Of a stretch of DNA of 38,894 nucleotides, positions 6,576-38,894 are shown one piece after another. A program made the translations under genes and the position numbers. Source of the DNA: Pedobacter sp. (GTDB lineage Bacteria > Bacteroidota > Bacteroidia > Sphingobacteriales > Sphingobacteriaceae); the NCBI GenBank assembly GCA_014378705.1, contig JACMND010000043.1, positions 1 to 38,894 on the forward strand, given 5' to 3'. Position 1 is the first letter of the stretch; the number at the start of each line of letters is the position of its first letter. The notes beneath the pieces were generated by a model. The model worked only from the letters and a program-made list of their open reading frames with translations, was not told the DNA's origin and made no database searches.

Positions 6576-6655
6576 AGCGGTTTGGATTATAGGGTGATTG
6601 ACAACTAAGATATATATATTATTTCTGTTACGCAGAGAGTATAAATACGGAAAAT

Positions 6656-6682
6656 GCTTAAAATTTAATAATTATTTTAAGC
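6656..6682 (-). terminator. AT-rich hairpin downstream of the response regulator
   Basis: GCTTAAAAT (6656-6664) and ATTTTAAGC (6674-6682) form a perfect 9-bp inverted repeat with a 9-nt loop, about 80 nt beyond the stop of the minus-strand regulator gene. On that strand it is followed by ATTTT. It is a weak terminator candidate because the stem is AT-rich. Confidence 0.35.
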
Positions 6683-6759
6683 TAACACTCTAAAGGTAAA
6701 TGTTTTAGTTGTTTAGATGTTCAGAGCCTTTAAATAGGCTTATATCCAATCAAAAGCAA

Positions 6760-7404: not shown

Positions 7405-7526
7405 TGATTATTTAGTAATTGTTAAGGCAGATAAGCTTTTAATGTAGCAGTATAATTAAACGATCAATATCTGCTAATTGAAAAGATAATGCATTTGTAT
7501 TTTTGCCTGATTAGTTAGGATTTGTA

Positions 7527-7545
7527 ATGCATTTATAAAATGCAT
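7527..7545. promoter_or_regulatory. Palindrome upstream of the response regulator
   Basis: ATGCATTT (7527-7534) and AAATGCAT (7538-7545) form a perfect inverted repeat with a 3-nt spacer. A second AATGCATTT half-site is near 7488. It lies between serS and the regulator gene and could be an operator or an AT-rich hairpin; nothing else supports a role. Confidence 0.3.
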
Positions 7546-7656
7546 GATCACATTAACGAAAAGTACATGAAAGGTAGGAAGAATACTTAAGGATGATTTA
7601 ATACATTTTAAATATACATTATTTACCAAAACCAAAAAGGAAATAATTTAACTACG

Positions 7657-8928
7657 TTAATTGATGTAATCAAAAATGGTATAAGGTACTAGTGCAGCAG
7701 GTATTTTTATACCATTTTCAGTCTGGTTATTTTCTAATAGAGATGCAACTATCCGGGGTAACGCCAGGGCGCTTCCATTCAACGTATGTGCAAGCCGCGG
7801 TTTTTCTCCTTCTCCCTTATAACGAAGCTTTAGCCTGTTACTTTGATAATTTTCAAAGTTAGATACAGATGATACTTCCAGCCATCGGGCCTGGGCCGCA
7901 CACCATACTTCCATATCGTATGTTTTTGCAGAAGTAAAACTCATATCACCACTGCATAAACTAAGAACCCGATACGGCAGCTCTAATAATTTCAACAAGG
8001 ATTGTACATAAGCACTCATTTCTTCAAGAACCTGATATGATCTTTCGGGATGAACGATCTGAACAACCTCAACTTTATCAAACTGATGCAATCTGTTTAA
8101 ACCTCTTACATGAGCTCCATAAGAGCCTGCTTCTCTGCGAAAGCATGGGGTGTATGCACAATTTTTAACTGGTAATTCGTCTTTCTTTAGAATTACATCC
8201 CTGTATAAGTTTGTAACAGGTACTTCAGCAGTGGGTATTAAATATAGGTTATCTATTCCAATATGATACATCTGTCCTTCTTTATCAGGCAACTGCCCCG
8301 TCCCAAACCCAGAAGCCTCATTAACAACAATTGGAGGTTGTATCTCCCGGTAGCCGGCAAGTTCTGCCTGATCTAAAAAAAAATTAATGAGCGCCCTTTG
8401 CAGTTTTGCTCCTTTACCTTTGTAAACAGGAAAGCCCGCACCGGCAATTTTATTTCCTAACTCAAAATCTATAATATCATACTTTACACCCAGTTCCCAA
8501 TGTGGAAGTGCGTTATCAGGTAGTGCAGGGATTTGTCCGTGTTCAAAAACCGTCACATTATTATCCGGGTTTATCCCAAAAGGTACAGATTGATGCGGGA
8601 GATTTGGAAGCTGAAGAAGTATGGTCTGAAGTTTTCCTTCTAAGTTTGCCAATTTATCCGCAAGAAGTTTTGTTTGTTCCTTAACGGCCGAAGTTTTTAC
8701 TTTTAAGGCCTCTGCTTGTTCTTTCAATCCCTGTCTCATTAATTCGCCGATTTGCCTTGCGCCCAAATTTGATTCCGAAACAATTTTTTCTAATTCTATT
8801 TGTGTTAATCTTCTATCCTCATCAAGGCCGATCAAACTATCCACTAATTCCGGTTGTTTAAACCCTTTAAATTTTAAACGTTCTAAAACCTTCTCCCTAT
8901 TTTCGCGGATATAACTAACTTGCAGCAT
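7657..8928 (-). CDS. serS: Seryl-tRNA synthetase
   Basis: SerRS charges tRNA-Ser (and tRNA-Sec where present) in the cytoplasm. The 423-residue protein has the expected N-terminal antiparallel coiled-coil arm (about 30-105) that contacts the long variable arm of the tRNA. The class II core follows, with TAEVP at 233-237, motif 2 containing Arg264-Arg265 in FRREAGSYGAHVRGLNRLHQ, and motif 3 in LNGSALALPRIVASLLENNQ. The length is normal. The ATG start is supported by a TAnnTTTG box 19 nt upstream. It is divergent from rsmI across a long non-coding stretch. Confidence 0.97.
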   Translation of the reverse strand: MLQVSYIRENREKVLERLKFKGFKQPELVDSLIGLDEDRRLTQIELEKIVSESNLGARQIGELMRQGLKEQAEALKVKTSAVKEQTKLLADKLANLEGKLQTILLQLPNLPHQSVPFGINPDNNVTVFEHGQIPALPDNALPHWELGVKYDIIDFELGNKIAGAGFPVYKGKGAKLQRALINFFLDQAELAGYREIQPPIVVNEASGFGTGQLPDKEGQMYHIGIDNLYLIPTAEVPVTNLYRDVILKKDELPVKNCAYTPCFRREAGSYGAHVRGLNRLHQFDKVEVVQIVHPERSYQVLEEMSAYVQSLLKLLELPYRVLSLCSGDMSFTSAKTYDMEVWCAAQARWLEVSSVSNFENYQSNRLKLRYKGEGEKPRLAHTLNGSALALPRIVASLLENNQTENGIKIPAALVPYTIFDYIN

Positions 8929-8947
8929 TTGATTTTTGATTTTTTGA

Positions 8948-8955
8948 CAAAGATA
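8948..8955 (-). promoter_or_regulatory. Bacteroidota -7 promoter element of serS
   Basis: On the minus strand the sequence is TATCTTTG, matching TAnnTTTG, 19 nt before the serS start codon. No convincing -33 TTG is visible. The predicted leader is about 15 nt. Confidence 0.5.
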
Positions 8956-9153
8956 TAAACAGTTGCAAGTTTTGAGTTGTAAGTTTTAAGCTGGAGGCCG
9001 GGATAGTTGATACGAAATTGATTTCGATGTAAAAATATTATCGATGTAATCTCCCAATGAAGCACTTAGATCAGTTGACTACCCAAGCATTCCGACCTTT
9101 TACCGGTAAACTTGAAACGAAAGCATGGCTGAAATAAGCAAAAAGTGCGAAAA

Positions 9154-9197
9154 CCTGCTTTTCAAATAAATTTGACAGATTATTTTAGAAAAGCAGG
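9154..9197. repeat. Long hairpin between serS and rsmI
   Basis: CCTGCTTTTC (9154-9163) pairs perfectly with GAAAAGCAGG (9188-9197). The helix can extend with AAATAA (9164-9169) against TTATTT (9180-9185) past a 2-nt bulge. It stands in the spacer of a divergent gene pair, so it is not an obvious terminator for either; it could be part of a mobile or repeated element. Confidence 0.4.
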
Positions 9198-9398
9198 GCT
9201 TCAGCTTTTAATTAACGGCAGCCCCGCTATTCACTTTAGCTCATTCGTACCTCATGGGGCTAACGTTCCTATCGGGTTTAATTGATTCCGGTCAGTCGCT
9301 CTTAACAAAGGATTCCTAGCCATAGCCATTAAATAGATAATTCAATTAATTATAACCTGAAACTAAAATCCATAACCCAAGCCAAAACTTCAACTTAA

Positions 9399-10118
9399 AT
9401 GAGCGGTAAACTTTACCTCGTACCAACTCCAATCGGTAATTTGGAGGATATAACATTGCGAGCTATCAGAATTTTGAAAGAAGTAGATCTGATCCTTGCT
9501 GAAGATACACGTACCAGCGCCCCACTTTTAAAACATTTTAACATTGATAAAAAAGTGTTTTCGCATCATCAGCATAATGAACATCAATCTGTAACCGAAA
9601 TAGTTCGTTTTTTAAATGAAGGCCAAAATGTTGCCCTAATTTCTGATGCCGGAACACCTGGTATTTCTGATCCGGGTTTTTTACTGGTCCGCGAAGCCAT
9701 AAAAAATAATGTGATGGTTGAATGCCTTCCCGGTGCCACTGCTTTTGTTCCTGCTTTGGTAAACTCAGGTCTTTCTGCCGATAGATTTACATTTGAAGGA
9801 TTTCTTCCTGTAAAAAAAGGACGGCAAACACGGCTTAAAAGTCTTATTACCGAACCCAGAACAATGATTTTTTACGAATCTCCCCATCGCTTGCTAAAAA
9901 CTCTTGAAGAATTTAGTGAATATTTTGGCCATGAGCGTGAAGCCTCTGTATCGCGGGAGCTAACAAAACTTTTTGAAGAAACAATAAGAGGAACTTTATT
10001 TTCAATTAAATTACATTTTGAAACACACACATTAAAAGGAGAATTTGTAATTTGTGTAGAAGGTAAGGTTAAGGAGCAAAAAACCAGTAGTAGTAAAAAG
10101 CAATCACTTAACAACTAA
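9399..10118 (+). CDS. rsmI: 16S rRNA (cytidine-1402-2'-O)-methyltransferase
   Basis: RsmI is a SAM-dependent tetrapyrrole-methylase-fold enzyme that 2'-O-methylates C1402 in the decoding centre of 16S rRNA. The 239-residue protein shows the family blocks LYLVPTPIGNLEDITLRAIR near the start, LILAEDTRTSAPLLKHF, the glycine-rich LISDAGTPGISDPGFLLVRE, and FYESPHRLLKTLEE. Length and domain order are normal apart from a short lysine/serine-rich tail. It begins a plus-strand group with the PH-domain gene (30-nt gap) and lnt (7-nt gap), probably one transcript. No -7 box was found just upstream. Confidence 0.95.
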   Translation: MSGKLYLVPTPIGNLEDITLRAIRILKEVDLILAEDTRTSAPLLKHFNIDKKVFSHHQHNEHQSVTEIVRFLNEGQNVALISDAGTPGISDPGFLLVREAIKNNVMVECLPGATAFVPALVNSGLSADRFTFEGFLPVKKGRQTRLKSLITEPRTMIFYESPHRLLKTLEEFSEYFGHEREASVSRELTKLFEETIRGTLFSIKLHFETHTLKGEFVICVEGKVKEQKTSSSKKQSLNN

Positions 10119-10148
10119 TTCGCTAACAAAAAACCAAAAAAACAACAA

Positions 10149-10781
10149 ATGGAACAATATATTTCTGATGATCAGGATCCGAGAACCGCGGAGAAAGTTA
10201 TGGGGAAACTTAGAGACCTGCTTACCTCGGGCGAAGCAATCGTTTATCTTGCCATCCAAAAAAAACCAGCGGTAACTCTTATCCCGGATTGTATTGCGGT
10301 TAGCACCAAACGTTTATTCTTTTGTTTGCCCGGCAACCTGGGACTTACAACCAACTACGTTACTTTTACATGGGAAGAGATAAAGGAAGTTTCATTTAAG
10401 GAGGAATTCTTTGGGAGTAAATTTATAGCAGTGCCTCAAAGAGGTGAAAACGTAACTGTAGATTATATTCCGAAAGTACAGGCACGTAAGTTATACCAAT
10501 TTTGTAATGAGCAGCTTGAAAAGCAGAAAGAGCTTTTCAAAAATCATACTTTTGATGATAGAAAACCTTTTCAGGTTGTTGATAGTCTTACAGAAGATAC
10601 TTCGTACACTGAAATTGAAGAAGAACTTATTCCTTTTATCTCACCTAAAAAAGAACATTTAGCAACGGATGATGACGAGTTAACTTTAAAGTTAGTAAGA
10701 TTAAAATTACTTTTTCAAAAACAATTGATTTCTCAACAGGAATATGAAGCTAAAAAGTCTGATATATTAACACAACTATAA
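10149..10781 (+). CDS. PH-domain protein with SHOCT-like tail
   Basis: A 210-residue cytoplasmic protein. Residues about 20-120 resemble bacterial PH-like (YokE-type) domains: a GEAIVYLAIQKKPAVTLIPD start, an AVSTKRLFFC strand, a TFTWEEIKEVSFKEEFFG strand and a FIAVPQ strand. The last 35 residues (LKLVRLKLLFQKQLISQQEY and onward) look like a SHOCT-type short C-terminal helix pair, which usually mediates oligomerisation. An acidic linker lies between. No enzyme motif is present and the partner is unknown. It sits between rsmI and lnt with short gaps. Confidence 0.75.
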   Translation: MEQYISDDQDPRTAEKVMGKLRDLLTSGEAIVYLAIQKKPAVTLIPDCIAVSTKRLFFCLPGNLGLTTNYVTFTWEEIKEVSFKEEFFGSKFIAVPQRGENVTVDYIPKVQARKLYQFCNEQLEKQKELFKNHTFDDRKPFQVVDSLTEDTSYTEIEEELIPFISPKKEHLATDDDELTLKLVRLKLLFQKQLISQQEYEAKKSDILTQL

Positions 10782-10788
10782 AATTTTA

Positions 10789-12471
10789 GTGAAAAATAAT
10801 TACCTTTTAGCACTTTCAAGTGCTTTTTTATTGTGGCTTGCCTGGCCACCAACCCCCTTTACTTCTTTTCTACTTTTAATAGCATTAGTTCCATTACTGA
10901 TAGCTGTTGAAAATATTATTTATAGCAACGCTTTTAAAAAAAAATCACTTAAGGTATTTAAAATTGCCTTTTTATGCTTTTTTATCTGGAACACAGCTTG
11001 TATCTACTGGATATTTAATTCACTGAACGCAGTGATGCCGGTTTGGACGGCAGCTATCATTTCAATTATTCCTTTTGGCCTTGGATCTTTGTTAATGACT
11101 ATCTCTTTTTGGCTTTATTACCAAATGCGTAAAGTTAGCAGACGCTGGTGGAGTTATGCCGCTTTGGTTTGTTTTTGGATAGGATACGAATATTTGCATC
11201 AATCCTGGGACCTTGCTTTTCCCTGGATGAACCTCGGCAACGGCTTTGCCCGCGATCATTATCTGGTACAATGGTATGAATATACGGGTGTATATGGTGG
11301 TACTTATTGGGTGCTAATGTCAAACATACTTTTATTTGAAACTTATCTTGCATACAAATCGGCGAAAGCAAAAAAAGATCTTGAAATTAAAAATTACAAG
11401 CTTGTGCAGCTTTTAGCAAGATTTGCTCTACATATAGCGGTTCCTGTTTTACTCTCTTTTTACATGTATTACAGCAACTCAGAAAAAATAAATCCGTCCA
11501 ATGTAGTTGTCGTTCAGCCAAATATTGATCCCTATGCCAAGTTTGGTACCATGCCCGTATTTAAACAAATTGAAGTGCTGATCAGGTTGTCTGATTCGTT
11601 AGGAAAAGCAAATACCGAATATTTTATATGGCCGGAAACGGCTATTTCAAAAGATACCGACGAAGAAAGTATACGGCAAGAATCGAATTACCTAGACGTT
11701 AAACGGTTTCTAAATAAGTACAAAAATGGAAATGTAATCACAGGAATAGAAAGTTATGCTATTTATAAATCAGCTAAAACTAGTACTGCCCGCTTAGATG
11801 AAAGAAGTGGTAACTATTTTGATGTTTTTAACGCAGCTATCCAAATAGAAAATTCCCCTAAAATTCAGTTTTACCATAAATCTAAACTCGTTCCGGGTGT
11901 AGAGCAAATTCCTTTTTCCGGTTCATTGTCCTTTATTAAACCATTTTTCCAGGATTTCGGCGGTTCAGCCGGAAGTTATGGCAAACAAGCTCATCCATCT
12001 GTTTTTTATTCTCAAAATGGAATTGGGGCTGCCCCGGTAATTTGTTATGAATCAATTTGGGGAGAATACGTATCAGATTATGTTCAGCAGGGCGCTCAGT
12101 TTATTACCATTATTACAAATGATGCCTGGTGGGGGAACACCTCCGGCAAGGACCAGCATCTTCAATACGCAAAGTTAAGAGCCATAGAGACCCGTAGATG
12201 GGTGGCTCGGTCTGCAAACACCGGCATTTCGGCTTTTATTAATCAACGGGGTGACATTGTGCAACAATCCGGATGGTGGCAAACTACGGCGCTTAGCGCA
12301 GATATTAATTTAAATGATGATCAGACCTTTTATGTGAAACACAAGGATTATATCGCCTTCGTGGGGTGTTTAGGAAGTTTTGGCTTCGGGCTATTTTTAT
12401 TATACGTTTTGTTCGTAGATAAAAAACAAAATGGGTTAAAACATCAGGATTCTAAAATTCCGGTAGTCTGA
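10789..12471 (+). CDS. lnt: Apolipoprotein N-acyltransferase
   Basis: Lnt adds the third acyl chain to the N-terminal cysteine of lipoproteins in the inner membrane. The 560-residue protein has N-terminal hydrophobic segments (about 5-40, 55-110, 125-180, 205-228), a periplasmic carbon-nitrogen hydrolase domain (about 235-515) and a final TM helix (about 523-545). The probable catalytic triad is Glu283 (WPETAIS), Lys364 (FYHKSKLVPG) and Cys419 (APVICYESIW). The start is a GTG at 10789, 7 nt after the previous stop, giving an N-terminus MKNNYLLALSSAFLLWLAWP typical of the family. It ends 12 nt from the convergent nadE. Confidence 0.95.
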   Translation: MKNNYLLALSSAFLLWLAWPPTPFTSFLLLIALVPLLIAVENIIYSNAFKKKSLKVFKIAFLCFFIWNTACIYWIFNSLNAVMPVWTAAIISIIPFGLGSLLMTISFWLYYQMRKVSRRWWSYAALVCFWIGYEYLHQSWDLAFPWMNLGNGFARDHYLVQWYEYTGVYGGTYWVLMSNILLFETYLAYKSAKAKKDLEIKNYKLVQLLARFALHIAVPVLLSFYMYYSNSEKINPSNVVVVQPNIDPYAKFGTMPVFKQIEVLIRLSDSLGKANTEYFIWPETAISKDTDEESIRQESNYLDVKRFLNKYKNGNVITGIESYAIYKSAKTSTARLDERSGNYFDVFNAAIQIENSPKIQFYHKSKLVPGVEQIPFSGSLSFIKPFFQDFGGSAGSYGKQAHPSVFYSQNGIGAAPVICYESIWGEYVSDYVQQGAQFITIITNDAWWGNTSGKDQHLQYAKLRAIETRRWVARSANTGISAFINQRGDIVQQSGWWQTTALSADINLNDDQTFYVKHKDYIAFVGCLGSFGFGLFLLYVLFVDKKQNGLKHQDSKIPVV

Positions 12472-14882: not shown

Positions 14883-14913
14883 TTGCGAACCATAGTGCAC
14901 CGTTTTACTTTTG
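14883..14913 (+). promoter_or_regulatory. gldB promoter (TTG-N20-TACTTTTG)
   Basis: A -33 TTG at 14883-14885 and a -7 TACTTTTG at 14906-14913 are separated by 20 nt, a match to the Bacteroidota consensus. The gldB ATG at 14923 follows 9 nt later, so the leader would be only a few nucleotides. The alternative TTG start at 14911 lies inside the -7 element. Confidence 0.6.
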
Positions 14914-14922
14914 AACACAATA

Positions 14923-15954
14923 ATGAATATTAAAAGATTACCCCAAATTTACTTGATTTTTTTTACATCCCTTTTTTGGCTGTCGTGCAAAAACGAAAAA
15001 AAAATGAATGTAGACCGTGTAAAGATGAATATTTCAATAGAACGTTTTGATAAGCAGCTTTCTTCTTTAAATCCAGACAAATTATCAACTGAACTTCCAA
15101 AACTAAAGCAAATTTACGGGCATTTTTTTACTGATTACATGGAAAATATTCTGGAGGTAGGCCCTGTAAATGACACATCCTATTACAAGCAGTTAAGAAC
15201 AGTTCTGAAAAATAAAGATTTTAAAGAGCTTACATTAGAAGTAAACCGAAAATTTCCGAACACTGAAGAACAAAAGTCAGAGCTTACCAATGCCTTTAAA
15301 CAGATTAAATATTATTATCCTAAATTAATTGTACCCCGTGTGATCACCTTTGTTTCAGGTTTCGCATTGCAAACGCCGGTTGGCAATGATTATATCGGTA
15401 TTGGTTTAGATATGTTTTTAGGCAAGGATTCTAAATTTTATCCGGCATTGGTTCAAAGTATACCGCAATATATTTCCCGGCGGTTTACCCCCGAAAACAT
15501 AACACCCCGAATTATTGAAGGCTTTACCAGGGAAGAACTTTTTTTGGACAAGGAAACTGACCGTTCATTACTTGCTAAAATGGTTTATAATGGAAAAATC
15601 ATGTATTTCATGAAAGTTTCTTTGCCGGAAGTTGCGGATAGTTTAATTGTAGGATACTCAACCGGTCAAATGGAATGGGCTGAAACAAACCAGCCTGGTG
15701 TTTGGGCGTATTTTCTTGAAAACAATTTATTGTATGAAACCGATTATAAAAGGATCCAAAAATATTTGACAGATGCGCCTTTTACCCCTGGTTTGGGAGA
15801 AGACTCTAAATCTGCACCAAAACTTGGTATTTTTATAGGATGGCAGATCGTTAAAAAATACATGGAACGCAATCCAGAAACCTCCTTACAGTTATTAATG
15901 AAAGAAACTGATGCGCAAAAAATTCTGACTGAATCGAAATACAAACCCCGGTAA
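14923..15954 (+). CDS. gldB: Gliding-motility lipoprotein GldB
   Basis: GldB is a lipoprotein required for gliding in Flavobacterium johnsoniae; its exact biochemical role is unknown. From the ATG at 14923 the protein has 343 residues. It has a lipoprotein signal, MNIKRLPQIYLIFFTSLFWL, followed by SC with the lipidated cysteine, and the family pattern IERFDKQLSSLNPD, IYGHFFTDYMENIL, YYYPKLIVPRVITFVSGFA, IGIGLDMFLG and MVYNGKIMYFM. A TTG 12 nt upstream would extend the frame, but it overlaps the promoter -7 box, so the ATG is preferred. The usual neighbour gldC is not immediately downstream; an esterase gene follows instead. nadE is nearby, as in other Bacteroidota. Confidence 0.93.
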   Translation: MNIKRLPQIYLIFFTSLFWLSCKNEKKMNVDRVKMNISIERFDKQLSSLNPDKLSTELPKLKQIYGHFFTDYMENILEVGPVNDTSYYKQLRTVLKNKDFKELTLEVNRKFPNTEEQKSELTNAFKQIKYYYPKLIVPRVITFVSGFALQTPVGNDYIGIGLDMFLGKDSKFYPALVQSIPQYISRRFTPENITPRIIEGFTREELFLDKETDRSLLAKMVYNGKIMYFMKVSLPEVADSLIVGYSTGQMEWAETNQPGVWAYFLENNLLYETDYKRIQKYLTDAPFTPGLGEDSKSAPKLGIFIGWQIVKKYMERNPETSLQLLMKETDAQKILTESKYKPR

Positions 15955-24723: not shown

Positions 24724-27486
24724 TTGTTTATACCATTCAAAAGACTTCAATTGAAATCTAATTATATAGTAATTTATCTTTGTTATTTACTAATTGCGAT
24801 TTTCCAGATTTCAGGCTGTATCACACCAAAAAATACAGTTACAAGTCGTGGAATGCAAAATTTGACTGCCCGTTATAACATTCTTTACAACGCCAGGGAA
24901 ATACTCAAAGAAAGCGAACAGAATATCAGTTTATCTCATCAGGATAATTATGATGTATTGCTGGATGTTTACGAAGAACCAAATGAACAAATTTCTCAAC
25001 CTGAATTAAAAAAGCTTGATGAAGCAATTTTAAAGGCAAATTCTATCATTAATGATAAGGTTCAAAGTAAGTATGTTGACGATGCTTATTTTATAATTGC
25101 CAAAGCAAACTTTTTAAAATCTAACTTTTACAATGCCACGGAATTTTTTACTTACATATATGGCTCCTATCCAAAACAAACCGAATTAAGGCAACTTTCT
25201 TTAGTTTTTAAAGCACGGTCGCTTATCAATTCGGAACGTTTTAATGATGCTAAATCTGTTTTAGATACCGCATTCAAATATGTAAATACCAAAAGTAAAT
25301 CAGTAGCCGGTTTGTATGCAACCAGCGCCCAACTGGCTCTGTATGGACACCAGGATGAACGAGCAGCGGAAATGCTTGAAAAGGCCGTCAGCTTCTCCGG
25401 TAAAGGCCAGCATAAAATACGCTGGATATTTCTTCTGGCCCAGCTTCAGGAATTAAATGGAAACTTAACTGCCGCACAAAAAAATTATGCACAGGTTATT
25501 AAAAGCAATGCACCATTTGAGATGGCTTTTAACGCGACCTTAAACAGGCTAAGTATAAAAGATAAGCAGGAAGGCCGTAGTTTAAACCGGGACGAGCAAC
25601 TGCTTTCTTTATTAAAGGACGATAATAATGTTAGTTTTTCTGATCAGGTATATTTTGAGATCGCAAAACTCCATGCCGATAAAGGTGAATTGGAGGTGGC
25701 CCTCAAAAATTATAAAACATCACTAAGGAAAAGTTCAGGTAACGATAACCAAAAAGGCCTTGCCTATCGTGCGATTGGGGATATCTATTTTAAACAAAAA
25801 AAGTATGAACAATCAAAAGCTTTTTATGACAGCAGCCTTGCTTCACTTTCACCGCAACATCGTGATTTTGATCTGATCAGAAAAAAAGCCGGCAGTATGT
25901 CGCTTTTATCCGACCGTTTGTTGATAATTGACCGTGAAGACACGTTGCAAATGCTGGCTAAACTACCTGAGGCAGAACGTAAAAAACGGATTGATCTACT
26001 GGCAATAAACCAGGCGCAAAATTTTTCAGGTCAAACAACCAATCCCTCAACTAGTTTGGTGCAACAAACGGCACTTCAAAATACGAGTTCAGACAAATTT
26101 TACTTCAATAATAGGGTAGCTTTAAGCCAGGGATTGGCTGAATTTAAACGTATTTGGGGTAACCGCAAACTTGAGGACAACTGGCGCCGCAGCCAACGGT
26201 CGGCAATTGATATAGCCAACAGTAATTTAAATGGTTTCGGGCTAAACGCTGCCGACAATCCTGATGTAGCTTCAATCGATAGCCTTAACACAAAAACATC
26301 CTTAAATACCGGCATCCTACCTGAAACACCAGAATTGATGGAAGCGTCTAATGGGCGAATTATAGCAGCTTATTATGATATAGGCAATTATTACCGGGAA
26401 GAGTTAAACGACGAAGAAGAAGCTATTAAAACTTATGAATTGATGTTAAACCGGTTTCCGGAGAATAATCTAAAACTTCCTGTGTATTATAATCTGTATC
26501 GGCTTTACGCGATGAAAGATCCAAAAAAATCTCTGGAGTATAAAAATATCCTCTTAAATCAATTTCCTGAATCTCCGTTCGCAAAAGTGATTAACAATCC
26601 TGAATATAATAGAATGAGTGATGATAAGGAGCTTGAATTAAATAATCGCTACAATGAATTATACGATCAATATGTCGCTAAAAATTATCCGGAAGTTTTA
26701 AAGCAGGCAGAAGAAATAAACCAAAAATACAATGACAATAAGCTTTCACCCCAATTGGCCTACCTGCGTGCCCTTGCCATAGGACATACTCAAAAATTAA
26801 ACGTATTAGATAGCGTGTTTAGAAATATAGTAAGAGATTATTCAGCTGATATTCTTATTGTACCCCTCATAAAACAACATTTAGCTTACATAGATTCAAA
26901 TAAATTAGCCATGCAAAGCCGTACATTCGCACTGGTTGATCAGGATCCAAATGAAGAGGTTTTTGTTGAAGAGCCAGCCATTGAACCAGTTTTAAAAAGC
27001 GCATTGGTTTCTACTACACCTGCGGATAATAAGCAGGTAGACAACAATATTATTACCGCTACAGAAAACAAAACCACAGTTCCGGCAGGTAGTTCACCTG
27101 TTGAAAACGGTTTATTCTCAATGACAGAATCCGCTGAATACTACTATATAATCAATGTAATGGACCCTTCTGTTAATCTAAGCTCATCAAGGTTTGGGGT
27201 AGGACAATTTAACCGTGCAAATTTTTCTGGAGAAGGAATTAAACATCAGTTAAAATCGGTTAACAACCAAAATCAGTTGATATTTGTAGGTGTGTTTAAA
27301 AGCAATCAGTCTGCTTTAGATTACTCTTTAAGTATCAATCAGGTTATGAAAGAAATAATGAAAATACCCGTTGATAAGTACAACACGTTTTACATCAGCA
27401 AACAAAACCTGGAGAAATTATCAGACCGGTTAATGATCAATAAGTATTTAGAATTTTACCGGTTAAATTTAAACCTGGGTCAATAA
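24724..27486 (+). CDS. sprE: T9SS periplasmic lipoprotein PorW/SprE
   Basis: PorW/SprE is a TPR lipoprotein needed for type IX secretion and gliding. The protein has about 920 residues with an N-terminal lipoprotein signal ending in ISGC (Cys32 from the TTG at 24724, Cys23 if the TTG at 24751 is used). The family-typical NLTARYNILYNAREILKESE follows. Next come several TPR-like helical pairs (about 110-390, e.g. VYFEIAKLHADKGELEVALK and AYRAIGDIYFKQKKYEQSKA), a low-complexity Gln/Asn/Thr middle, more TPR (about 545-650), and a C-terminal SPOR-like domain starting YYYIINVMDPSVNL. No ATG precedes the lipobox. The class A PBP gene starts 5 nt after its stop. Confidence 0.85.
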   Translation: MFIPFKRLQLKSNYIVIYLCYLLIAIFQISGCITPKNTVTSRGMQNLTARYNILYNAREILKESEQNISLSHQDNYDVLLDVYEEPNEQISQPELKKLDEAILKANSIINDKVQSKYVDDAYFIIAKANFLKSNFYNATEFFTYIYGSYPKQTELRQLSLVFKARSLINSERFNDAKSVLDTAFKYVNTKSKSVAGLYATSAQLALYGHQDERAAEMLEKAVSFSGKGQHKIRWIFLLAQLQELNGNLTAAQKNYAQVIKSNAPFEMAFNATLNRLSIKDKQEGRSLNRDEQLLSLLKDDNNVSFSDQVYFEIAKLHADKGELEVALKNYKTSLRKSSGNDNQKGLAYRAIGDIYFKQKKYEQSKAFYDSSLASLSPQHRDFDLIRKKAGSMSLLSDRLLIIDREDTLQMLAKLPEAERKKRIDLLAINQAQNFSGQTTNPSTSLVQQTALQNTSSDKFYFNNRVALSQGLAEFKRIWGNRKLEDNWRRSQRSAIDIANSNLNGFGLNAADNPDVASIDSLNTKTSLNTGILPETPELMEASNGRIIAAYYDIGNYYREELNDEEEAIKTYELMLNRFPENNLKLPVYYNLYRLYAMKDPKKSLEYKNILLNQFPESPFAKVINNPEYNRMSDDKELELNNRYNELYDQYVAKNYPEVLKQAEEINQKYNDNKLSPQLAYLRALAIGHTQKLNVLDSVFRNIVRDYSADILIVPLIKQHLAYIDSNKLAMQSRTFALVDQDPNEEVFVEEPAIEPVLKSALVSTTPADNKQVDNNIITATENKTTVPAGSSPVENGLFSMTESAEYYYIINVMDPSVNLSSSRFGVGQFNRANFSGEGIKHQLKSVNNQNQLIFVGVFKSNQSALDYSLSINQVMKEIMKIPVDKYNTFYISKQNLEKLSDRLMINKYLEFYRLNLNLGQ

Positions 27487-29830: not shown

Positions 29831-31639
29831 ATGGAAAAATTTGATTATCGAGCTGCGCTGCAAAAAATTCCGGGCAAACCCGGTGTTTACCAATTTTATG
29901 ATGCATTAGGAGAATTAATTTATATCGGAAAGGCCAAGAACCTAAGAAATCGTGTTGGTTCCTATTTCAATAAAGACAATCAGCAGGTAAACGCCAAAAC
30001 AAGGGTCTTAGTAAGTAAAATTACAGACATTAATTTTACTATTGTGGATACAGAAATTGATGCCTGGCTGTTGGAAAATAGCCTTATTAAAAAGCATCAA
30101 CCTCGTTACAACGTTCTTTTAAAAGATGATAAAACTTACCCCTGGATACTGATTAAAAACGAACGATTTCCCAGAATTTACTGGACACGAAATTTGGTTA
30201 AAGACGGAACAATTTATTTTGGGCCTTATGCTTCGGTAAGCATGATGCACGTGATATTGGGAATGGTTAAAGAAATTTATCCTTTAAGAACTTGTAACTT
30301 GCCACTAACACCTGCGAATATAGAATCCGGAAAATTCAGGGTTTGCCTGGAATACCAGATCGGTAATTGCAAAGGCCCGTGTGAAGGATACCAAAACGAA
30401 ATAGACTATCATCACAATATTGAGGAGATAAAGGACATTTTGAACGGAAAAACCGGAGCTATCATCAGGAAGCTAAAAAACGAGATTCATCAATCTGTTT
30501 CTGACCTAAACTTTGAACTGGCACACCGTCTTAAAAGAAAGTATGATTTGCTTGAAAGATACCAAAGTAAATCAACCATAGTTAATTCTTCTATTTCTGA
30601 TGTAGACGTTTTTACAATCACCACAGATGAAAAGCATGCTTTCGTAAATTATCTCAAAGTAATTAACGGAACAGTGATAACCACTCAAACTATTGAACTT
30701 AAAAAACGGGTAGAAGAAAGCGATGCTGATTTATTAACCATCGCTATTTCTGAATTTAGAACAAGGTTTAACAGTACTTCAAGGGAAATAATCATTCCGT
30801 TTGAGCTTGACTGGGAAGAAACAGGCATTAAATTTACGGTTCCTAAATTAGGTGAAAAGAAAAAACTTCTGGAATTATCTCAGAAAAATGCAGCGTTTTT
30901 TAAAAGGGAAAAATTAGACCAGTACGAGAAACTAAACCCGGAAGTAAGAACAGAACGACTTCTAAACCTGATGATGAAAGATTTGCGCTTAACACAACTT
31001 CCTCGTCATATTGAGTGTTTTGATAATTCTAACTTTCAGGGAAAATTTCCGGTTTCTGCCGTAGTTGTTTTTAAGGACGGAAAACCATCTAAAAAAGATT
31101 ATCGCCACTTTAATGTGAAGACTGTTGAGGGCCCGGATGATTTTGCGACCATGGAAGAAGCTGTACACAGAAGATACAGGCGTATGCTTGAAGAAGGTGA
31201 AACTTTGCCCCAGCTTATCGTAATTGATGGCGGAAAAGGCCAGTTGTCTTCCGCTATAAAAAGCCTTACACTTTTGGGTATTGAAACACAGGTAGCCATC
31301 ATTGGAATTGCCAAGCGGCTTGAAGAGATTTATTATCCAAACGACCCATATCCGATGTACCTGGACAAAAAATCAGAAACATTAAAAATTATTCAGCAAT
31401 TACGGGATGAGGCACATCGTTTTGGAATAACTTTTCATCGCCTGAAGCGAAATAAAGCTACTTTATCTACAGAGTTAGAAAGCATTCCGGGAGTTGGGCG
31501 TACCTCTGCCGACAAATTGCTTAGAAAGTTTAAGTCAGTTAAAAATATTAAAATAGCTTCTCAACCTGAACTATTGGAAGTGCTTAACTTAAAGCAAACC
31601 CTTGCACTTATGGCTTACTTTAACAATAACCCTCAATAG
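29831..31639 (+). CDS. uvrC: Excinuclease ABC subunit C
   Basis: UvrC makes both incisions in nucleotide-excision repair after UvrAB damage recognition. The 602-residue protein has an N-terminal GIY-YIG nuclease (GKPGVYQFYDALGELIYIGK), the UVR domain for UvrB contact (about 205-245), the RNase H-like second nuclease (about 380-530, with IECFDNSNFQGKFPVSAVVV and VIDGGKGQLSSAI), and a C-terminal helix-hairpin-helix pair (LESIPGVGRTSADKLLRKFK). Start and length are standard. It is followed by an intrinsic terminator at 31666-31688. Confidence 0.97.
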   Translation: MEKFDYRAALQKIPGKPGVYQFYDALGELIYIGKAKNLRNRVGSYFNKDNQQVNAKTRVLVSKITDINFTIVDTEIDAWLLENSLIKKHQPRYNVLLKDDKTYPWILIKNERFPRIYWTRNLVKDGTIYFGPYASVSMMHVILGMVKEIYPLRTCNLPLTPANIESGKFRVCLEYQIGNCKGPCEGYQNEIDYHHNIEEIKDILNGKTGAIIRKLKNEIHQSVSDLNFELAHRLKRKYDLLERYQSKSTIVNSSISDVDVFTITTDEKHAFVNYLKVINGTVITTQTIELKKRVEESDADLLTIAISEFRTRFNSTSREIIIPFELDWEETGIKFTVPKLGEKKKLLELSQKNAAFFKREKLDQYEKLNPEVRTERLLNLMMKDLRLTQLPRHIECFDNSNFQGKFPVSAVVVFKDGKPSKKDYRHFNVKTVEGPDDFATMEEAVHRRYRRMLEEGETLPQLIVIDGGKGQLSSAIKSLTLLGIETQVAIIGIAKRLEEIYYPNDPYPMYLDKKSETLKIIQQLRDEAHRFGITFHRLKRNKATLSTELESIPGVGRTSADKLLRKFKSVKNIKIASQPELLEVLNLKQTLALMAYFNNNPQ

Positions 31640-31665: not shown

Positions 31666-31688
31666 AGTTGCATATAAAGCAACTTTTT
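31666..31688 (+). terminator. Intrinsic terminator after uvrC
   Basis: AGTTGC (31666-31671) and GCAACT (31679-31684) form a 6-bp stem with a 7-nt loop, followed by TTTTT. It lies 27 nt after the uvrC stop and separates uvrC from the adhesin gene. Confidence 0.7.
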
Positions 31689-31751: not shown

Positions 31752-31836
31752 ACACGACTGAAAATACTACATGGGAATTTCTACCAGTTCATGTACTGCA
31801 TACACTACTATTTACAGGTTTCCCTGCGGGATAAGT

Positions 31837-34800
31837 ATGCGAAAAGTCTGGGCTGCTCTCCAATTTTTGTGCATTGCATTTTTCCTACTAACTGCCGGGC
31901 AACACGAGTTAAAAGCACAGTGTAATAACGCCATTACTTCAGGGAATTTTTCATCTATACCTCCTGGGCAGTATACCTCAATTGGTAGTTACACTTCTGC
32001 AATAGCTTCTGATTTCATAAGTATTGTTAACAATAACGGTAGTGTTGGCGCACATATCAAAAGAACGCTAAACTATTCCCTTAAACAAACGATATACAAC
32101 CTAAAATCGGCTACACCTTATACACTTTCATTTGATTATAGCTTATTGGATAATTGCCACGCATCTGCTCAAACCTCTTTTAGGGTTGAAGTTTTTAACG
32201 GAGCAACAAGTATAGGTATAACAGATATCAATGCCACAAACGGAGGCGGTGCTTCTACGGGTGTAGTCAACTTTACCACACCACCTGTAACCGGTGTGAT
32301 ATCCATTGTATTTACTGACCCTAATTCCAACAAACCATCCTGCGGAGCAGTAATCGATAATTTATTTATTCTTTCTCCTTTCGAAGTTACTTCTGCACAT
32401 ACAAACGTTTCGTGCTTTAACCAAAGCAATGGTAGTTTCACCATATCCGGAACCGGGGGTGCAGGCGCATATTCAGGTACCTATTCTTTTAACGGAAACC
32501 CGCTGGTTAGTTTTACGGTTAGCAACGGATCAGGAACTGTAAATAATTTAGCCGCCGGAAGTTACGAGGTTACACTTAGGGATGCCAATGGTTGTCCCCA
32601 AGTAAAAACAATTGTCATTACTCAGCCTACAGCTTTAACAATTACAGGTACAAAAACCGATGTTACCTGTGCTGGCTTTAACAATGGAACAATTAACTTA
32701 AATATTTCAGGCGGAACAGCTCCATTTAACTACATGTGGAACGATGGTGCCACTACTCAAAATGTTACTAATCTAAGTACAGGCCCGCATAGTGTAACTG
32801 TTACAGATGCCAAAGGCTGCTCTGCAAATTATTCTGTCAATATTTTCCAACCTACTGCCGTTACCGTTTTATCTTCGTTTTCTAACCCAACATGTTTTGG
32901 CAGTGCAGATGGCTCTATAAATTTATCTGTTTCTGGCGGTACGGCTCCTTATAGCTATAGCTGGTCCAACGGATCAACTTTAAAAAACCAAACAGGACTT
33001 GCAGCTGCGTCATACACCGTTACTGTTACAGATGCCAGAGGTTGTACAAATATCCAAAATATAACTTTGACATCTCCACCGGCCATGTTACTTTCTACAT
33101 CTGTAATTAATGTGCTTTGCAGTGGCAATAACTCTGGTAGTATTGACCTTATCGTTTCTGGAGGCACCGCACCTTATAGTTATAACTGGTCGAATGGAAG
33201 CACTGTACAGGATCTGACAAATTTAATAGCGGGAACTTATAGTGTTACTGTAACGGATAATAAAAATTGCACTTCAGTATTAACTGTGGCAATTTCACAA
33301 CCTTCACCGGTCACAATCAATTATGCGTTAACAAATGTAAGTTGCGCTGGCAATAACAATGGATCTATTTTATTGACGCCGACCGGAGGTACAGGAACTT
33401 ATTCATATTTGTGGAATACAGGAGCAACAACGAATAATCTTAGCGGTTTAGCTTCCGGATCTTACAGTGTTACAGTATCAGATCAAAACGGGTGTACTGC
33501 GGTAACAACAATTTCTATATCCCAACCAATTGCTATTTCTTTATCCGCAACGCAAACAAATATTAAATGTTTTGGAAGCAGTACAGGGGCCATTAATTTA
33601 ACCGTAAGCGGCGGAACTGCTCCTTTCTCTTATTTATGGAATAACATTTCAACCGGCTATTCTTCAACTACTGAAGATATATCATCCTTGCCGGCTGGCA
33701 CCTACGCAGTAACTGTTACAGATTTAAACGGATGTACTTCTTCCATAAGTGTAACGCTTACACAAATTCCTGCGATAACATTAAGCAGCACGGTAACCAA
33801 TGTTTCCTGTTTCGGCAACAATACCGGAGCAATCAATCTATCTGTTTCAGGCGGACAATCTCCTTATGCTTACGTGTGGACGAATACAAGTTCAACCAGT
33901 CAGGATCTGAGTAACCTTTTGGCTGGCAATTACACGGTTACGGTTACAGACGCTAACGGATGTATAGCTATTTTACCACATACAGTAACCCAGCCTGCGG
34001 CCGCGTTAAATATCTCCGGCACAAAAACCAATGTTTTATGTTTTGGCAGCAATACCGGTAGTGTCAACATCACACCGTCTGGTGGAACAGCACCATATAC
34101 TTACAGTTGGTCTAATGGTAGATATACTCAGGATATAACTAATCTTTTAGCCGGTAGTTACACCGTTACCGTTACCGATGCGAAAGGATGTGTTAAAACC
34201 AAAACCTATACAATAACCCAGCCCGCTCAAATATTACTGACTTTTAGTTCCACAAATCCAATTTGCGTTGGAAGCAATAATGGCTCTATCACTATAAATA
34301 CTCCAACCGGCGGCAGTGCGCCATACAGTTACAGCTGGGTAAAGGATGGTGTTGGTATATCTTCTCCAGATTTAAATGCTTTAACAGCAGGGGTTTACCA
34401 GCTTACAGTTACAGATCAAAACGGTTGTTCTGTTATTCATAGTATTGTTTTAAATGATCCGGTTCCCATATTAATAGATGTAAGACAAATAGATATTATT
34501 TGTGAAGGAAGTGATCCGGCGGCTAGTATCAGTATAGACATTAGTGGAGGTACGGCACCTTACACTAAAGTTTATACAAATATAGACGCTACTACATCTT
34601 TATTAACTGTTACAGACTTTTTTGGCTGTGAAAAAACTATCGTGGTGCCCTATTCCGTAATACCAGCCATTACAATTAACGCAGAACATGAGGACGTAAA
34701 ATGCTACGGGGATAATACAGGTTCAATAAGCATTTCTGTAAGTGGGGGTAACGCACCTTATACTTATGTATGGTCTGATGATCCTTCACTAAATGTTTCC

Positions 34801-37800
34801 AATAGAAATAACTTATTTTCCGGAACGTATACCATTAACATAGTAGATAATTCAGGTTGCGAATTAAGATCACTGATTGTAAATATTATACAGCCCCCGG
34901 CTCCTTTAATTATTACCCAAACTGCTTTCCAAAATATTACCTGCCCGGAAGGTTCTGATGGATCTATATCTGTTGATGTTACTGGAGGTACCTCTAATTA
35001 TACTTATTTATGGTCCAATGGTGCCAGCACAAAAAACATCTCGAACCTGTTAGCCGGTAGTTATACTTTAACCGTTACCGATGCATTTTTATGTCAGAAG
35101 AGTTTCACTTTTGAAATTACTGCACCGGAGCCAATTATAATAACATCTACTACAAATAATATTGATTGTTTTAACGGAAACGATGGCTCCATAAACCTTA
35201 GTGTTGTCGGCGGTAGCGGAATGTATACGTACACTTGGCAGGACCTCCCTTCAGGTCCCTACAACTTAAGCACCCGCAGTGGTTTAAAAGCAGGTATTTA
35301 CAACATAACCATAACAGATCAGTCAGGTTGTAAGGCTTACCAATCAATAACCTTAATTGAACCGCCTGCATTAACCCTTTCATCTTCCAAGCAGGATGTG
35401 GATTGTTTTGGAGATGCGAGCGGATCTGCAACCATTGAAATAGTTGGTGGGACAGCACCATATACGTATAATGGAAGTGCCGTCACCGGAGATATCATCC
35501 TGTCAAACCTTGCTGCTGGTACCTTTTCAATAACCGTCCGTGACGCTAATGGTTGCGAGGCAATCATAAATATAAATATTAGTCAGCCGGTTAAAGCAAT
35601 GGATTTTACCGCTGTGGTTACGAATGTAAAATGTTCAGGAGATAGTAACGGATCAATTAATGTTAATGGAAATGGAGGAACAGCACCATACACATATAGC
35701 TGGTCAAATGGTTCCACCACGCCAAACTTAAACAGTATGCCGGCCGGAACCTATTCAGTTGTAATAACTGATTTAAAAGGTTGCTTATTTTCAATCAACA
35801 ATATTATAATAACTCAACCTACACTGCCATTAACCGGTTCAACCATAATAACGGAGGTACTTTGTTACGGAGCGAACACTGGCAGTATTGATCTTTCAGT
35901 AACCGGAGGGACTACTCCTTACCGGTATATTTGGTCAAGCGGTCAGCAAACTCAGGATATTATAAATCTTCCTGCAGGAATTTATGAGGTAACTATCATA
36001 GATGCCAATAATTGCCGGGTTGTTCAATCCCTAAGTGTAGCTCAGCCTAACGCACCAATAAGTGTAAGCACATCCGTATCCAATGTTCTATGTTTTGGAG
36101 GTGCAACAGGTTCCGTTACTGTTTCTTCATCAGGAGGTACAGGCCCTTATATTGTCAGATGGTCCACAGGTGAAGAAACACCAACCCGAACTAACCTTTC
36201 AGCAGGCATTTACATGGGTCAGGTAATCGATGCGAATGGTTGCAGCTCCGCATTTACAGTAAGAATTAACGAGCCGGGGATTCTATCAGTTAACATCAAT
36301 TCTACAGAAAATTTATGTGCCGGTAACAATACTGCCTCGGCGGATGCTTTAGTTACCGGTGGAACAGCACCGTATAGTTACGCATGGTCTAACGGCGAAA
36401 CTACCTCAGGCATCAGTAACCTGTTAGCTGGAAGTTATTCAGTTACAGTTACAGATGCTAACAACTGTGTTTCTTCTTCAGCAACGTTAATTATTACTGA
36501 TCCGGCACCAATCGCAATATCGATTTCTCAAACAGATATCAATTGTTATGGCAACAATTCAGGTGCGATTTCAATTAGTGTAACCGGCGGATCAGGGTCT
36601 TATTTTTATGAATGGTCCAACGGTTCAACCGCACAAAATATAAGTAGCCTTGCTGCGGGAACTTATTCAGTAACCGTTTTTGATACCAACGGATGTACTA
36701 AATTAAGCGGGGTAATTACGTTAATTCAGCCCGCTGCCCCTTTATTGCTTACCGCGATTAAACAAAATGTAAATTGTTACAACGGATCAGACGGATCAAT
36801 TTCATTAACTGCTTCAGGAGGAACGGCAGCATACACTTTCCTTTGGGCCGATGGTAATACATCTCCAAACAGAACAGGTTTAGCTTACGGACTATATTCT
36901 GTGGTAGTTACTGATGCTTCCGGGTGTACGTATCCATTAAATGTTCAAATTTACCAACCGAACCCCCTTGTAGTAAGTTTTAACAAATCAGATGCTTCCT
37001 GTTTTGGAGAAAGTACAGGCTTTATTCAATTAAATGTTTCCGGCGGAAGCCCTTCGTATACTTACTCATGGAAGAAAGATGCCTCAGCAATCACCAATCC
37101 TGATCTTAATGCTTTATCGGCAGGAGTTTATGAAGTTACCGTTACAGATTCAAAAAATTGTAATTCTGTCATCACAACGATAACTATCGGCCAACCGGCT
37201 GCTGCTCTTTCAATAATTCTTACAAAAGTAAAAGACGTAAGTTGTAATGGTGCCTCAGATGGAGAATTAAGCATTAACACGCTCGGCGGAACGGCAGCAT
37301 ATTCTTATACCTGGACAAAAAACGGAATCGCAATCGTTGAGCCTGCTTCTAATTCTCTTTCCGCCGGAACATATACGGTTACTGTTACTGATATAAATGG
37401 TTGTTCAAATACATCAGCATCACTAATTATCAGTGAACCGGCTGTGTTAGTTGCTTCCGCATCATCCGGCCAAATAGTATGTAATGGAAATACGACTACA
37501 GTAACCGCTTCTGCTGTTGGAGGAACTGCATCTTACTTATATCGTATCGATGGTGGGGTTTATCAGTCCTCCGCCTTATTTTCGGGAATATCGGCAGGTG
37601 CGCATACCATTACTGCTAAAGACCAGAATGGCTGTACAGCCTCATATACTTTTGTTATCCAGGAACCAGAAATCCTTCAGCTTTCCATCACTACAATTCC
37701 CATCCTTTGCAATGGCGTAGAAGGAGCAACAAGTATTGTTGTTGGCATTTTGGGAGGAACTGCACCTTATAACGTAGATCGTACATTAATATCCGGTACC

Positions 37801-38894
37801 ACGTATCTCATTACCGTTACAGATGCCAATGGTTGCATTAAAAGTGAAAATGTAGATATTACTGAACCTTCACCGATGGTTGTAGAGGTTTCTCAAAAAA
37901 ATATTAGTTGTGTCGGTGTTTTTGATGGCGAAATTAGCTTAATTGTAACCGGAGGAAGCCCCGCTTATTCCTATAGTTTAGACGGCGTAGATTTTTCTAA
38001 TACAACCGGTTTATTTCAAAATCTGCCTTCCGGACATTACACAGTTACAGTTAAAGATATAAATGATTGCATTCTCCCAATAACGGTTACCATAACAAGT
38101 CCGCCAACAAATCTTGCCGTTACAATTAATCCGGTAGTTCCTATTACTTGTTTTGGTGGAACAACTTCTGCCACAGCTATTGCCTCAGGAGGAACAGAAG
38201 GAGCAGGATATTCCTATTCATGGGATACCTCTCCAGTTCAAACTTCCGCAACAATTACCGGGCTGACGGCTGGAAATTACAATGTTACAGTTACAGATGC
38301 CAATGGTTGTGTTGTTTCAAAACTCGTTACCATTAACCAACCAGATCAAATCATATTAATTAGTAAGGCAGTTACAGCACCAATCAATTGTTTTGGAGAA
38401 ACAGCTACAGTAACCTTAAACGCTACTGGCGGTTCGGCGCCTTTGTTCTACACGTTTAATGGAATTACTAACAATACTGGCATATTTAACAATGTTTTGG
38501 CAGGCACTGCAAAACCCTTTAGCATAACTGACATAAATAATTGCACACCATTAACCGGAACTATTGATGTTTCTGAACCTGCTTTATTATTAGCAATATT
38601 AATGGATCAGACCGCTGTTTCCTGTTTTGGAGACGGAGCCGGATCTGTATCGATAGCAGGAGCCAACGGTACTGCACCCTATTCTTACAGCATTGATGGA
38701 ACAACTTTCCAGGCAAGCGGGACTTTTACTGCACTGCCTGCCGGAAGCTATACCTTTACCGTGAAAGATGCCAACGGTTGTACCGTTACACAAAACGTAA
38801 GCATTGCCGGTCCGACGGCCGCTTTAGCTTCTTCCGTTGCAACTCAAACTCCGGTCGTGTGCTTTGGCGATGGTTCGGGTTCTGTAACCCTGGC
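31837..38894 (+). CDS. Giant SprB-repeat surface adhesin (3' end outside the window)
   Basis: One frame is open from 31837 to the right edge without a stop, giving at least 2352 residues. The N-terminus is a signal peptide, MRKVWAALQFLCIAFFLLTA, with a likely cleavage at KAQ|C near residue 28. Residues about 29-190 form a non-repeat domain with beta-rich sequence and a GAVIDNLFIL strand, resembling carbohydrate-binding jelly rolls (inference). From about 32404 onward come SprB repeats of 67-85 residues with the pattern CFGxxxGxI, SGGTAPYxYxWSNG, L.AGxYxVTVTDxxGC and Q/E-P. SprB of Flavobacterium johnsoniae is the cell-surface gliding adhesin exported by the T9SS. A C-terminal T9SS sorting domain is expected but lies beyond the window. 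An in-frame ATG at 31771 could add 22 residues; the 31837 start gives the better signal peptide. Confidence 0.9.
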   Translation, partial: MRKVWAALQFLCIAFFLLTAGQHELKAQCNNAITSGNFSSIPPGQYTSIGSYTSAIASDFISIVNNNGSVGAHIKRTLNYSLKQTIYNLKSATPYTLSFDYSLLDNCHASAQTSFRVEVFNGATSIGITDINATNGGGASTGVVNFTTPPVTGVISIVFTDPNSNKPSCGAVIDNLFILSPFEVTSAHTNVSCFNQSNGSFTISGTGGAGAYSGTYSFNGNPLVSFTVSNGSGTVNNLAAGSYEVTLRDANGCPQVKTIVITQPTALTITGTKTDVTCAGFNNGTINLNISGGTAPFNYMWNDGATTQNVTNLSTGPHSVTVTDAKGCSANYSVNIFQPTAVTVLSSFSNPTCFGSADGSINLSVSGGTAPYSYSWSNGSTLKNQTGLAAASYTVTVTDARGCTNIQNITLTSPPAMLLSTSVINVLCSGNNSGSIDLIVSGGTAPYSYNWSNGSTVQDLTNLIAGTYSVTVTDNKNCTSVLTVAISQPSPVTINYALTNVSCAGNNNGSILLTPTGGTGTYSYLWNTGATTNNLSGLASGSYSVTVSDQNGCTAVTTISISQPIAISLSATQTNIKCFGSSTGAINLTVSGGTAPFSYLWNNISTGYSSTTEDISSLPAGTYAVTVTDLNGCTSSISVTLTQIPAITLSSTVTNVSCFGNNTGAINLSVSGGQSPYAYVWTNTSSTSQDLSNLLAGNYTVTVTDANGCIAILPHTVTQPAAALNISGTKTNVLCFGSNTGSVNITPSGGTAPYTYSWSNGRYTQDITNLLAGSYTVTVTDAKGCVKTKTYTITQPAQILLTFSSTNPICVGSNNGSITINTPTGGSAPYSYSWVKDGVGISSPDLNALTAGVYQLTVTDQNGCSVIHSIVLNDPVPILIDVRQIDIICEGSDPAASISIDISGGTAPYTKVYTNIDATTSLLTVTDFFGCEKTIVVPYSVIPAITINAEHEDVKCYGDNTGSISISVSGGNAPYTYVWSDDPSLNVSNRNNLFSGTYTINIVDNSGCELRSLIVNIIQPPAPLIITQTAFQNITCPEGSDGSISVDVTGGTSNYTYLWSNGASTKNISNLLAGSYTLTVTDAFLCQKSFTFEITAPEPIIITSTTNNIDCFNGNDGSINLSVVGGSGMYTYTWQDLPSGPYNLSTRSGLKAGIYNITITDQSGCKAYQSITLIEPPALTLSSSKQDVDCFGDASGSATIEIVGGTAPYTYNGSAVTGDIILSNLAAGTFSITVRDANGCEAIININISQPVKAMDFTAVVTNVKCSGDSNGSINVNGNGGTAPYTYSWSNGSTTPNLNSMPAGTYSVVITDLKGCLFSINNIIITQPTLPLTGSTIITEVLCYGANTGSIDLSVTGGTTPYRYIWSSGQQTQDIINLPAGIYEVTIIDANNCRVVQSLSVAQPNAPISVSTSVSNVLCFGGATGSVTVSSSGGTGPYIVRWSTGEETPTRTNLSAGIYMGQVIDANGCSSAFTVRINEPGILSVNINSTENLCAGNNTASADALVTGGTAPYSYAWSNGETTSGISNLLAGSYSVTVTDANNCVSSSATLIITDPAPIAISISQTDINCYGNNSGAISISVTGGSGSYFYEWSNGSTAQNISSLAAGTYSVTVFDTNGCTKLSGVITLIQPAAPLLLTAIKQNVNCYNGSDGSISLTASGGTAAYTFLWADGNTSPNRTGLAYGLYSVVVTDASGCTYPLNVQIYQPNPLVVSFNKSDASCFGESTGFIQLNVSGGSPSYTYSWKKDASAITNPDLNALSAGVYEVTVTDSKNCNSVITTITIGQPAAALSIILTKVKDVSCNGASDGELSINTLGGTAAYSYTWTKNGIAIVEPASNSLSAGTYTVTVTDINGCSNTSASLIISEPAVLVASASSGQIVCNGNTTTVTASAVGGTASYLYRIDGGVYQSSALFSGISAGAHTITAKDQNGCTASYTFVIQEPEILQLSITTIPILCNGVEGATSIVVGILGGTAPYNVDRTLISGTTYLITVTDANGCIKSENVDITEPSPMVVEVSQKNISCVGVFDGEISLIVTGGSPAYSYSLDGVDFSNTTGLFQNLPSGHYTVTVKDINDCILPITVTITSPPTNLAVTINPVVPITCFGGTTSATAIASGGTEGAGYSYSWDTSPVQTSATITGLTAGNYNVTVTDANGCVVSKLVTINQPDQIILISKAVTAPINCFGETATVTLNATGGSAPLFYTFNGITNNTGIFNNVLAGTAKPFSITDINNCTPLTGTIDVSEPALLLAILMDQTAVSCFGDGAGSVSIAGANGTAPYSYSIDGTTFQASGTFTALPAGSYTFTVKDANGCTVTQNVSIAGPTAALASSVATQTPVVCFGDGSGSVTL
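32404..38894 (+). repeat. Array of 28 complete SprB repeats plus the start of a 29th
   Basis: Taking the first cysteine of each unit as the mark, units begin at 32413, 32668, 32893, 33118, 33343, 33568, 33808, 34039, 34264, 34501, 34702, 34942, 35167, 35404, 35632, 35863, 36091, 36316, 36544, 36775, 37000, 37243, 37480, 37708, 37909, 38149, 38389, 38623 and 38860. The mean period is about 230 nt (77 codons). Every complete unit also has a second cysteine in the closing TDxxGC-type strand, suggesting one disulfide per repeat. Units differ clearly from each other, so this is an old array and not a fresh tandem duplication. Units 10 and 24 are short (67 codons). Confidence 0.9.

Follow-up and report, generated by a model that had tools for sequence, protein, structure and literature searches.

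The window analysed here is the complete 38,894-base contig C154 of a genome of 3.31 Mb in 209 contigs (rated 99.7% complete), and at its right end a reading frame of more than 7 kb runs out without a stop codon. Which protein does this frame encode, where is its end, and is it, as proposed from the sequence alone, a T9SS-exported surface filament that serves in gliding or attachment? Because the window is a complete contig, the stop is absent through an assembly break and not through the way the window was cut.

The open frame, its repeat stalk and its tip

The frame described in the sequence-only reading was recovered as 2352 stop-free codons from the ATG at 31837 to position 38892. Another in-frame ATG lies upstream at 31771; since the putative signal peptide would be buried if translation began there, we place the start at 31837, from which a typical signal sequence (MRKVWAALQFLCIAFFLLTAG..AQ) runs directly, in agreement with the first reading. 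The terminator-like hairpin that follows uvrC, with its run of T, suggests that sprB has its own promoter. The Bacteroidetes-type TAnnTTTG box was absent from the 200 bases upstream of the adhesin gene, and Rfam gave no match across the window. The two genes on which the proposed function had partly been founded, gldB and porW/sprE, are both encoded in the window (Table 1).

Table 1. Features of the adhesin locus (positions in the window unless a contig is given)
Feature	Position	Strand	Basis or remark
gldB, gliding motility lipoprotein	14911..15954	+	TIGR03514 279 bits
porW/sprE, T9SS lipoprotein	24724..27486	+	NF052312 553 bits
uvrC, upstream neighbour of adhesin gene	29831..31639	+	same place before adhesin in Flavihumibacter soli R14
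Terminator-like hairpin 3' of uvrC, GTTGC-ATATAAA-GCAAC-TTTTT	31667..31688	+	read from sequence
N-terminal 2352 codons of giant SprB-type adhesin gene	31837..38894	+	open to contig end; very probably continues on C115:1-1620
Putative signal peptide	31837..31917	+	inferred from sequence, by eye
N-terminal domain, predicted beta-sandwich nearest CBM4/CBM16/CBM22	31912..32394	+	AF2 model, homology to Pedobacter adhesins
28 complete SprB units	32413..38856	+	own-unit HMM; two-unit AF2 model mean pLDDT 97.4
141 bases 96% identical to first 141 bases of C115	38665..38805	+	sequence comparison
Start of unit 29, 11 residues, cut by contig end	38860..38894	+	own-unit HMM
sprF, next gene after adhesin	C115:1721-2638		TIGR03519 247 bits

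The repeats matched the SprB repeat model (PF13573) far above its cut-off, with E=4e-269 for the gene and 23 stretches significant individually, and their assignment to this family therefore stands. A 75-position HMM built from the adhesin's own units counted exactly 28 complete units of ~67-85 residues each between residues 193 and 2340, the number given beforehand. At the DNA level the units have diverged (median pairwise identity 47%), and Tandem Repeats Finder detected nothing in the adhesin DNA.

The confident AF2 model of two units is Ig-like. Four of its five best Foldseek matches were fragments of GhpA (9flw, 9flp, 9flx and 9fls; E 6e-5 to 1e-3, 20-24% identity), the grappling hook protein of Aureispira, and would fit a prey-catching hook instead of a gliding adhesin. 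We give this explanation very little credence: the TM-scores are low (0.43-0.54) and phmmer found no GhpA chain at E<=0.01, which indicates that the two proteins share an Ig-like type of stalk only; many other Ig proteins appear further down the Foldseek list, and the CBM-like tip together with SprF (see below) point to the SprB scheme.

A separate N-terminal domain, also foreseen in the first reading, occupies residues ~27-185 in front of the stalk and is 30-36% identical to the domain found directly 5' of the SprB repeats in Pedobacter adhesins. Its AlphaFold2 model, computed from 8 sequences (pLDDT 78.9, pTM 0.78; three of the five models were much less sure), predicts a beta-sandwich fold of the CBM type, and the best structural match was 4bj0 (E=7e-7, TM 0.74, rmsd 3.2, 13% identity). 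Since the identity to the matched modules of CBM families 4, 16 and 22 is only ~8-19%, sugar binding by the tip is suggested by the fold only. In the Pedobacter adhesins the same domain lies behind a further Gly-rich region of ~700 residues that is absent here; an outer tip may have been lost in this adhesin, or else gained in Pedobacter. The Gly-rich region is conserved in six Pedobacter adhesins (L194, L195, L196, L198-L200) and starts ..VCGTSGLDGPQNAVPPVNTY.

The missing end of the adhesin gene

A genome-wide search with PF13573 matched no more than two places, C154 and the beginning of a second contig, C115, which opens in frame and without a start codon, partway through a unit whose subtype is that of the window's last unit. 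These are the only two contig ends in the genome that carry SprB repeats, one lacking a stop and the other a start, and they agree in frame and register: C154 breaks off after residue 11 of a unit, and C115 takes up the unit model at about residue 15. With unit 28 as guide, ~7 bases are the least that could be missing from the join, and any number of whole units may have been lost as well. After its opening partial unit, C115 encodes one more unit, two Big_9/tandem-95 domains and a type B sorting domain (PF13585 74 bits; TIGR04131 36-38 bits against a cut-off of 35), followed by the stop and by sprF. The extension recommended in the first reading thus supplied both the stop and a sorting domain of the TIGR04131/PF13585 type, and neither of the two outcomes named there as refuting it occurred.

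C154 and C115 share no sequence overlap, which leaves room for two different adhesin genes, that of C154 ending elsewhere. We regard this as highly improbable because SprB repeats occur on no other contig, because frame and register fit, and because the same gene orders are found in relatives. In F. soli R14, the closest relative, pbp1-uvrC-adhesin runs off contig C91, and the C-terminus of the adhesin followed by sprF opens contig C95; in genome G005 an intact, shorter adhesin gene (~1,322 residues) is likewise followed by sprF. Furthermore, Pedobacter arcticus and two relatives have single open reading frames of 3,112-3,746 residues (3188 in P. arcticus) that hold both ends, with a homologue of the N-terminal domain (31-34% identical) and of the C-terminal foot (41-52%). 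From these complementary ends and from the split and whole genes of relatives, we conclude that C154 and C115 very probably carry one gene. The joined protein would be a type B T9SS substrate of at least ~2,890 residues with at least 29-30 SprB units.

The break itself has a plausible origin. C115 and contig C178 overlap by exactly 141 bases within gldK, and 141 is probably the assembler's k; a k of this size and the near-identical terminal units suggest why the assembly broke within the adhesin gene. Giant adhesin genes also break at contig ends in relatives (L195, L197, L199, L200, L057/L051). As SprB-type genes are often cut in this way, they are probably under-counted and under-annotated in draft genomes.

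The foot, defined as the last 300 residues, is 44-57% identical to that of the G003-G012 adhesins and of the Paradesertivirga adhesin L075. The first 330 residues of this adhesin and of those of F. soli and G005 showed no mutual BLAST similarity. By these sequence comparisons the foot is kept, and the tips appear to have been exchanged or to have diverged beyond recognition. The F. soli R14 adhesin shares the pbp1-uvrC-adhesin locus, the sprF that follows, the foot (53-57% identical) and the split in the assembly, but differs in its N-terminal region, which has no BLAST similarity to ours, in its 22 units, and in a break that falls within the Big_9 repeats. The adhesins of P. arcticus and its relatives (L194, L196, L198) have the CBM-like domain, 22-30 SprB units and the related foot in common with this one, whereas they add the Gly-rich region and have no sprF in their fetched flanks. 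Synteny with uvrC was considered as a genus-wide rule and rejected: only F. soli has uvrC beside the adhesin, and in G005 it lies ~24 kb away. Downstream of sprF on C115, the gldK-HemD-DUF4271 block has the opposite orientation to that in F. soli R14 and G005.

The carrier SprF and its single tail cysteine

In Flavobacterium johnsoniae, the tail motif Cys324-X-Cys326 of SprF bonds Cys343 of GldK and ties SprB to the moving track, and this twin-cysteine motif was reported to be invariant among close homologs (PMC12635249). This disulfide link was published in 2025, together with the need of the second cysteine for efficient bonding: when only Cys326 is left, bonding is poor and gliding is lost (PMC12635249). 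The SprF encoded after the adhesin ends ..NQPRCYF, with one tail cysteine and not the Cys-X-Cys motif. A tail cysteine (..C-Y/F-F) is present in 28 of 28 distinct SprF orthologs, an order-level (sphingobacterial) sample that forms one clade with support 100, and stands exactly three residues from the end in 27 of them, while the sequence around it varies. In 23 of the 28, this SprF included, the mature part, as delimited by motif, has no other cysteine. The published mechanism with an intramolecular Cys-Cys donor consequently cannot operate in those 23, and, given that F. johnsoniae with the Cys326-only SprF does not glide, one would not expect a carrier with one cysteine to function in exactly that manner.

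The presumed acceptor cysteine is conserved. GldK of this genome, which is split over C115 and C178, has a cysteine aligned with PorK Cys356, in an alignment made with the F. soli GldK, which has the same motif. A precedent for a one-cysteine tail is PorG of Porphyromonas gingivalis, whose single tail cysteine is proposed to bond this same PorK/GldK cysteine (PMC12635249); PorG, however, is a component of the T9SS and not an adhesin carrier. With its single cysteine, the carrier may couple the filament to the gliding machinery in a manner that varies from that of F. johnsoniae. phmmer against the PDB found no relative of SprF, and the open-access literature held nothing on SprB repeats in Pedobacter or on SprF cysteines beyond PMC12635249.

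The moving type B adhesins of F. johnsoniae have no adjoining PorE gene, and the static ones do (PMC12618676, PMC9143113). No PorE gene was found by tblastn within 4 kb of this sprF. With this genome's own PorE as query, and counting only loci with enough flank, a PorE-like gene lay within 4 kb of 0 of 18 cysteine-tailed SprF loci and of 56 of 58 cysteine-less PorP loci. Most of the loci behind the cysteine and PorE counts belong to a single clade and cannot be treated as independent; since the 18 cysteine-tailed loci all fall in one clade, a nominal Fisher value should not be read as a true probability. The same genome holds an example of the other class on C146, where a carrier with the tail ..PTPRYF is flanked by a type B protein on one side and a PorE-like OmpA protein on the other. 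One tree locus, L130 (VQCPRLF), is a lone cysteine label within the PRYF-type clade.

The converse, that every carrier without PorE has a tail cysteine, was rejected. In a second carrier clade, with one member in this genome on C34 (tail ..TCPQRNW), the tail cysteine is present in 20 of 32 members and absent in 12, and no PorE was found in the ~1.5 kb available downstream of these carriers, with or without the cysteine. The contrast is a candidate sequence rule separating moving from static T9SS adhesins, and it holds one way only. The C34 locus (6441-11077; L202) is a second, PorE-free type B pair consisting of a 1209-residue CTD protein and its PorP carrier; the clade of this carrier is widespread in the family.

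Taken further, and with slightly less than even confidence, SprF in this lineage may be tied covalently to the gliding track by its single cysteine without an intramolecular Cys-Cys donor; in that case a periplasmic oxidant would have to form the bond, which might in effect be permanent, and the tail cysteine and the PorE neighbour would be alternative anchors for moving and static type B adhesins. A lineage that has kept a single tail cysteine, in most members the sole one, allows a direct test of what the second cysteine does.

A moving filament or a static adhesin

The adhesin is one more member of the SprB type, a T9SS-exported giant adhesin of a known kind; what is new is its single-cysteine carrier, a variant of a recently described mechanism. 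With the SprB-SprF pair of F. johnsoniae it has in common the signal peptide, the long SprB-repeat stalk, the type B CTD, the sprF gene directly downstream, the lack of an adjoining PorE gene, and T9SS and gliding genes in the genome. There is no sprC-sprD-sprB-sprF operon here, since uvrC lies directly upstream and leaves no room for sprC or sprD; the CBM-like tip and the Big_9 domains before the CTD also set this protein apart, and the part seen is under half the size of F. johnsoniae SprB (669 kDa, PMC9143113). The absence of a twin cysteine concerns the carrier: it makes the mechanisms less alike and leaves the adhesin's kind unaffected.

Besides gldB, the genome encodes SprA, GldK, GldL/GldM-like genes beside GldK, and PorW, as well as a GldJ-like lipoprotein that scores below the curated TIGR03524 cut-off. 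The CTD on C115, the sprF that follows and these T9SS genes support the earlier proposal of an exported surface filament used for gliding or attachment. We suspected that GldJ would be missing from genomes without this adhesin, and this proved wrong: a GldJ-like protein, always below the curated cut-off, is present in 20 of 20 genomes of the genus, including 9 without this SprF, so that the presence of the track is not tied to this adhesin and its SprF.

We favour, with fairly good confidence, a scheme in which the one split gene encodes a type B adhesin that is exported by the T9SS, held by SprF, bonded to GldK and dragged by the track with its tip gripping a surface. The gene structure, the domains, the genes present and the conservation of the cysteine were observed directly; the steps below follow the F. 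johnsoniae model. The protein, laid out as signal peptide, CBM-like tip, SprB stalk, two Big_9 domains and a conserved foot ending in the type B sorting domain, would be exported in two steps, first by the Sec system and next by the SprA translocon. SprF would take it from the translocon and hold its foot at the outer membrane, and the lone cysteine near the C-terminus of SprF would bond the conserved GldK cysteine. The moving GldJ/K/N track would then drag the filament, whose tip may grip a surface, probably a polysaccharide, to judge from its predicted fold.

By analogy with F. johnsoniae, movement on the gliding track is likely. The same protein could also be exported and held by SprF but remain static, serving attachment or biofilm formation, as most T9SS adhesins have not been shown to move and as several congeners encode the related adhesin away from this sprF. 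We consider a static filament unlikely: the static type B substrates of F. johnsoniae adjoin PorE (PMC12618676), which is missing here and at all 18 loci of the clade with enough flank; this SprF has the tail cysteine that the PorE-linked carriers lack; and gldB and a GldJ-like gene are present.

Pedobacter glucosidilyticus DD6b is described as gliding (PMC4642753). As a species, P. glucosidilyticus has an ortholog of this SprF (L068/L070), with which gliding of DD6b is compatible, though this is not a test of the moving filament.

Within the genus, this SprF and the foot occur in the same genomes, in a comparison that did not fully include G031. Six congeners (L169-L174) have this sprF without an adjoining adhesin gene; for five of the six, G031 being the exception, an adhesin with a related foot was fetched from another part of the genome (L052-L056). 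At six loci of Pedobacter and Paradesertivirga (L062, L068, L070, L072-L074), the same sprF is preceded by a giant open reading frame of more than 3,200 codons in which SprB motifs are few or absent; by comparison of these sequences, the type of stalk seems to have been exchanged while the carrier stayed.
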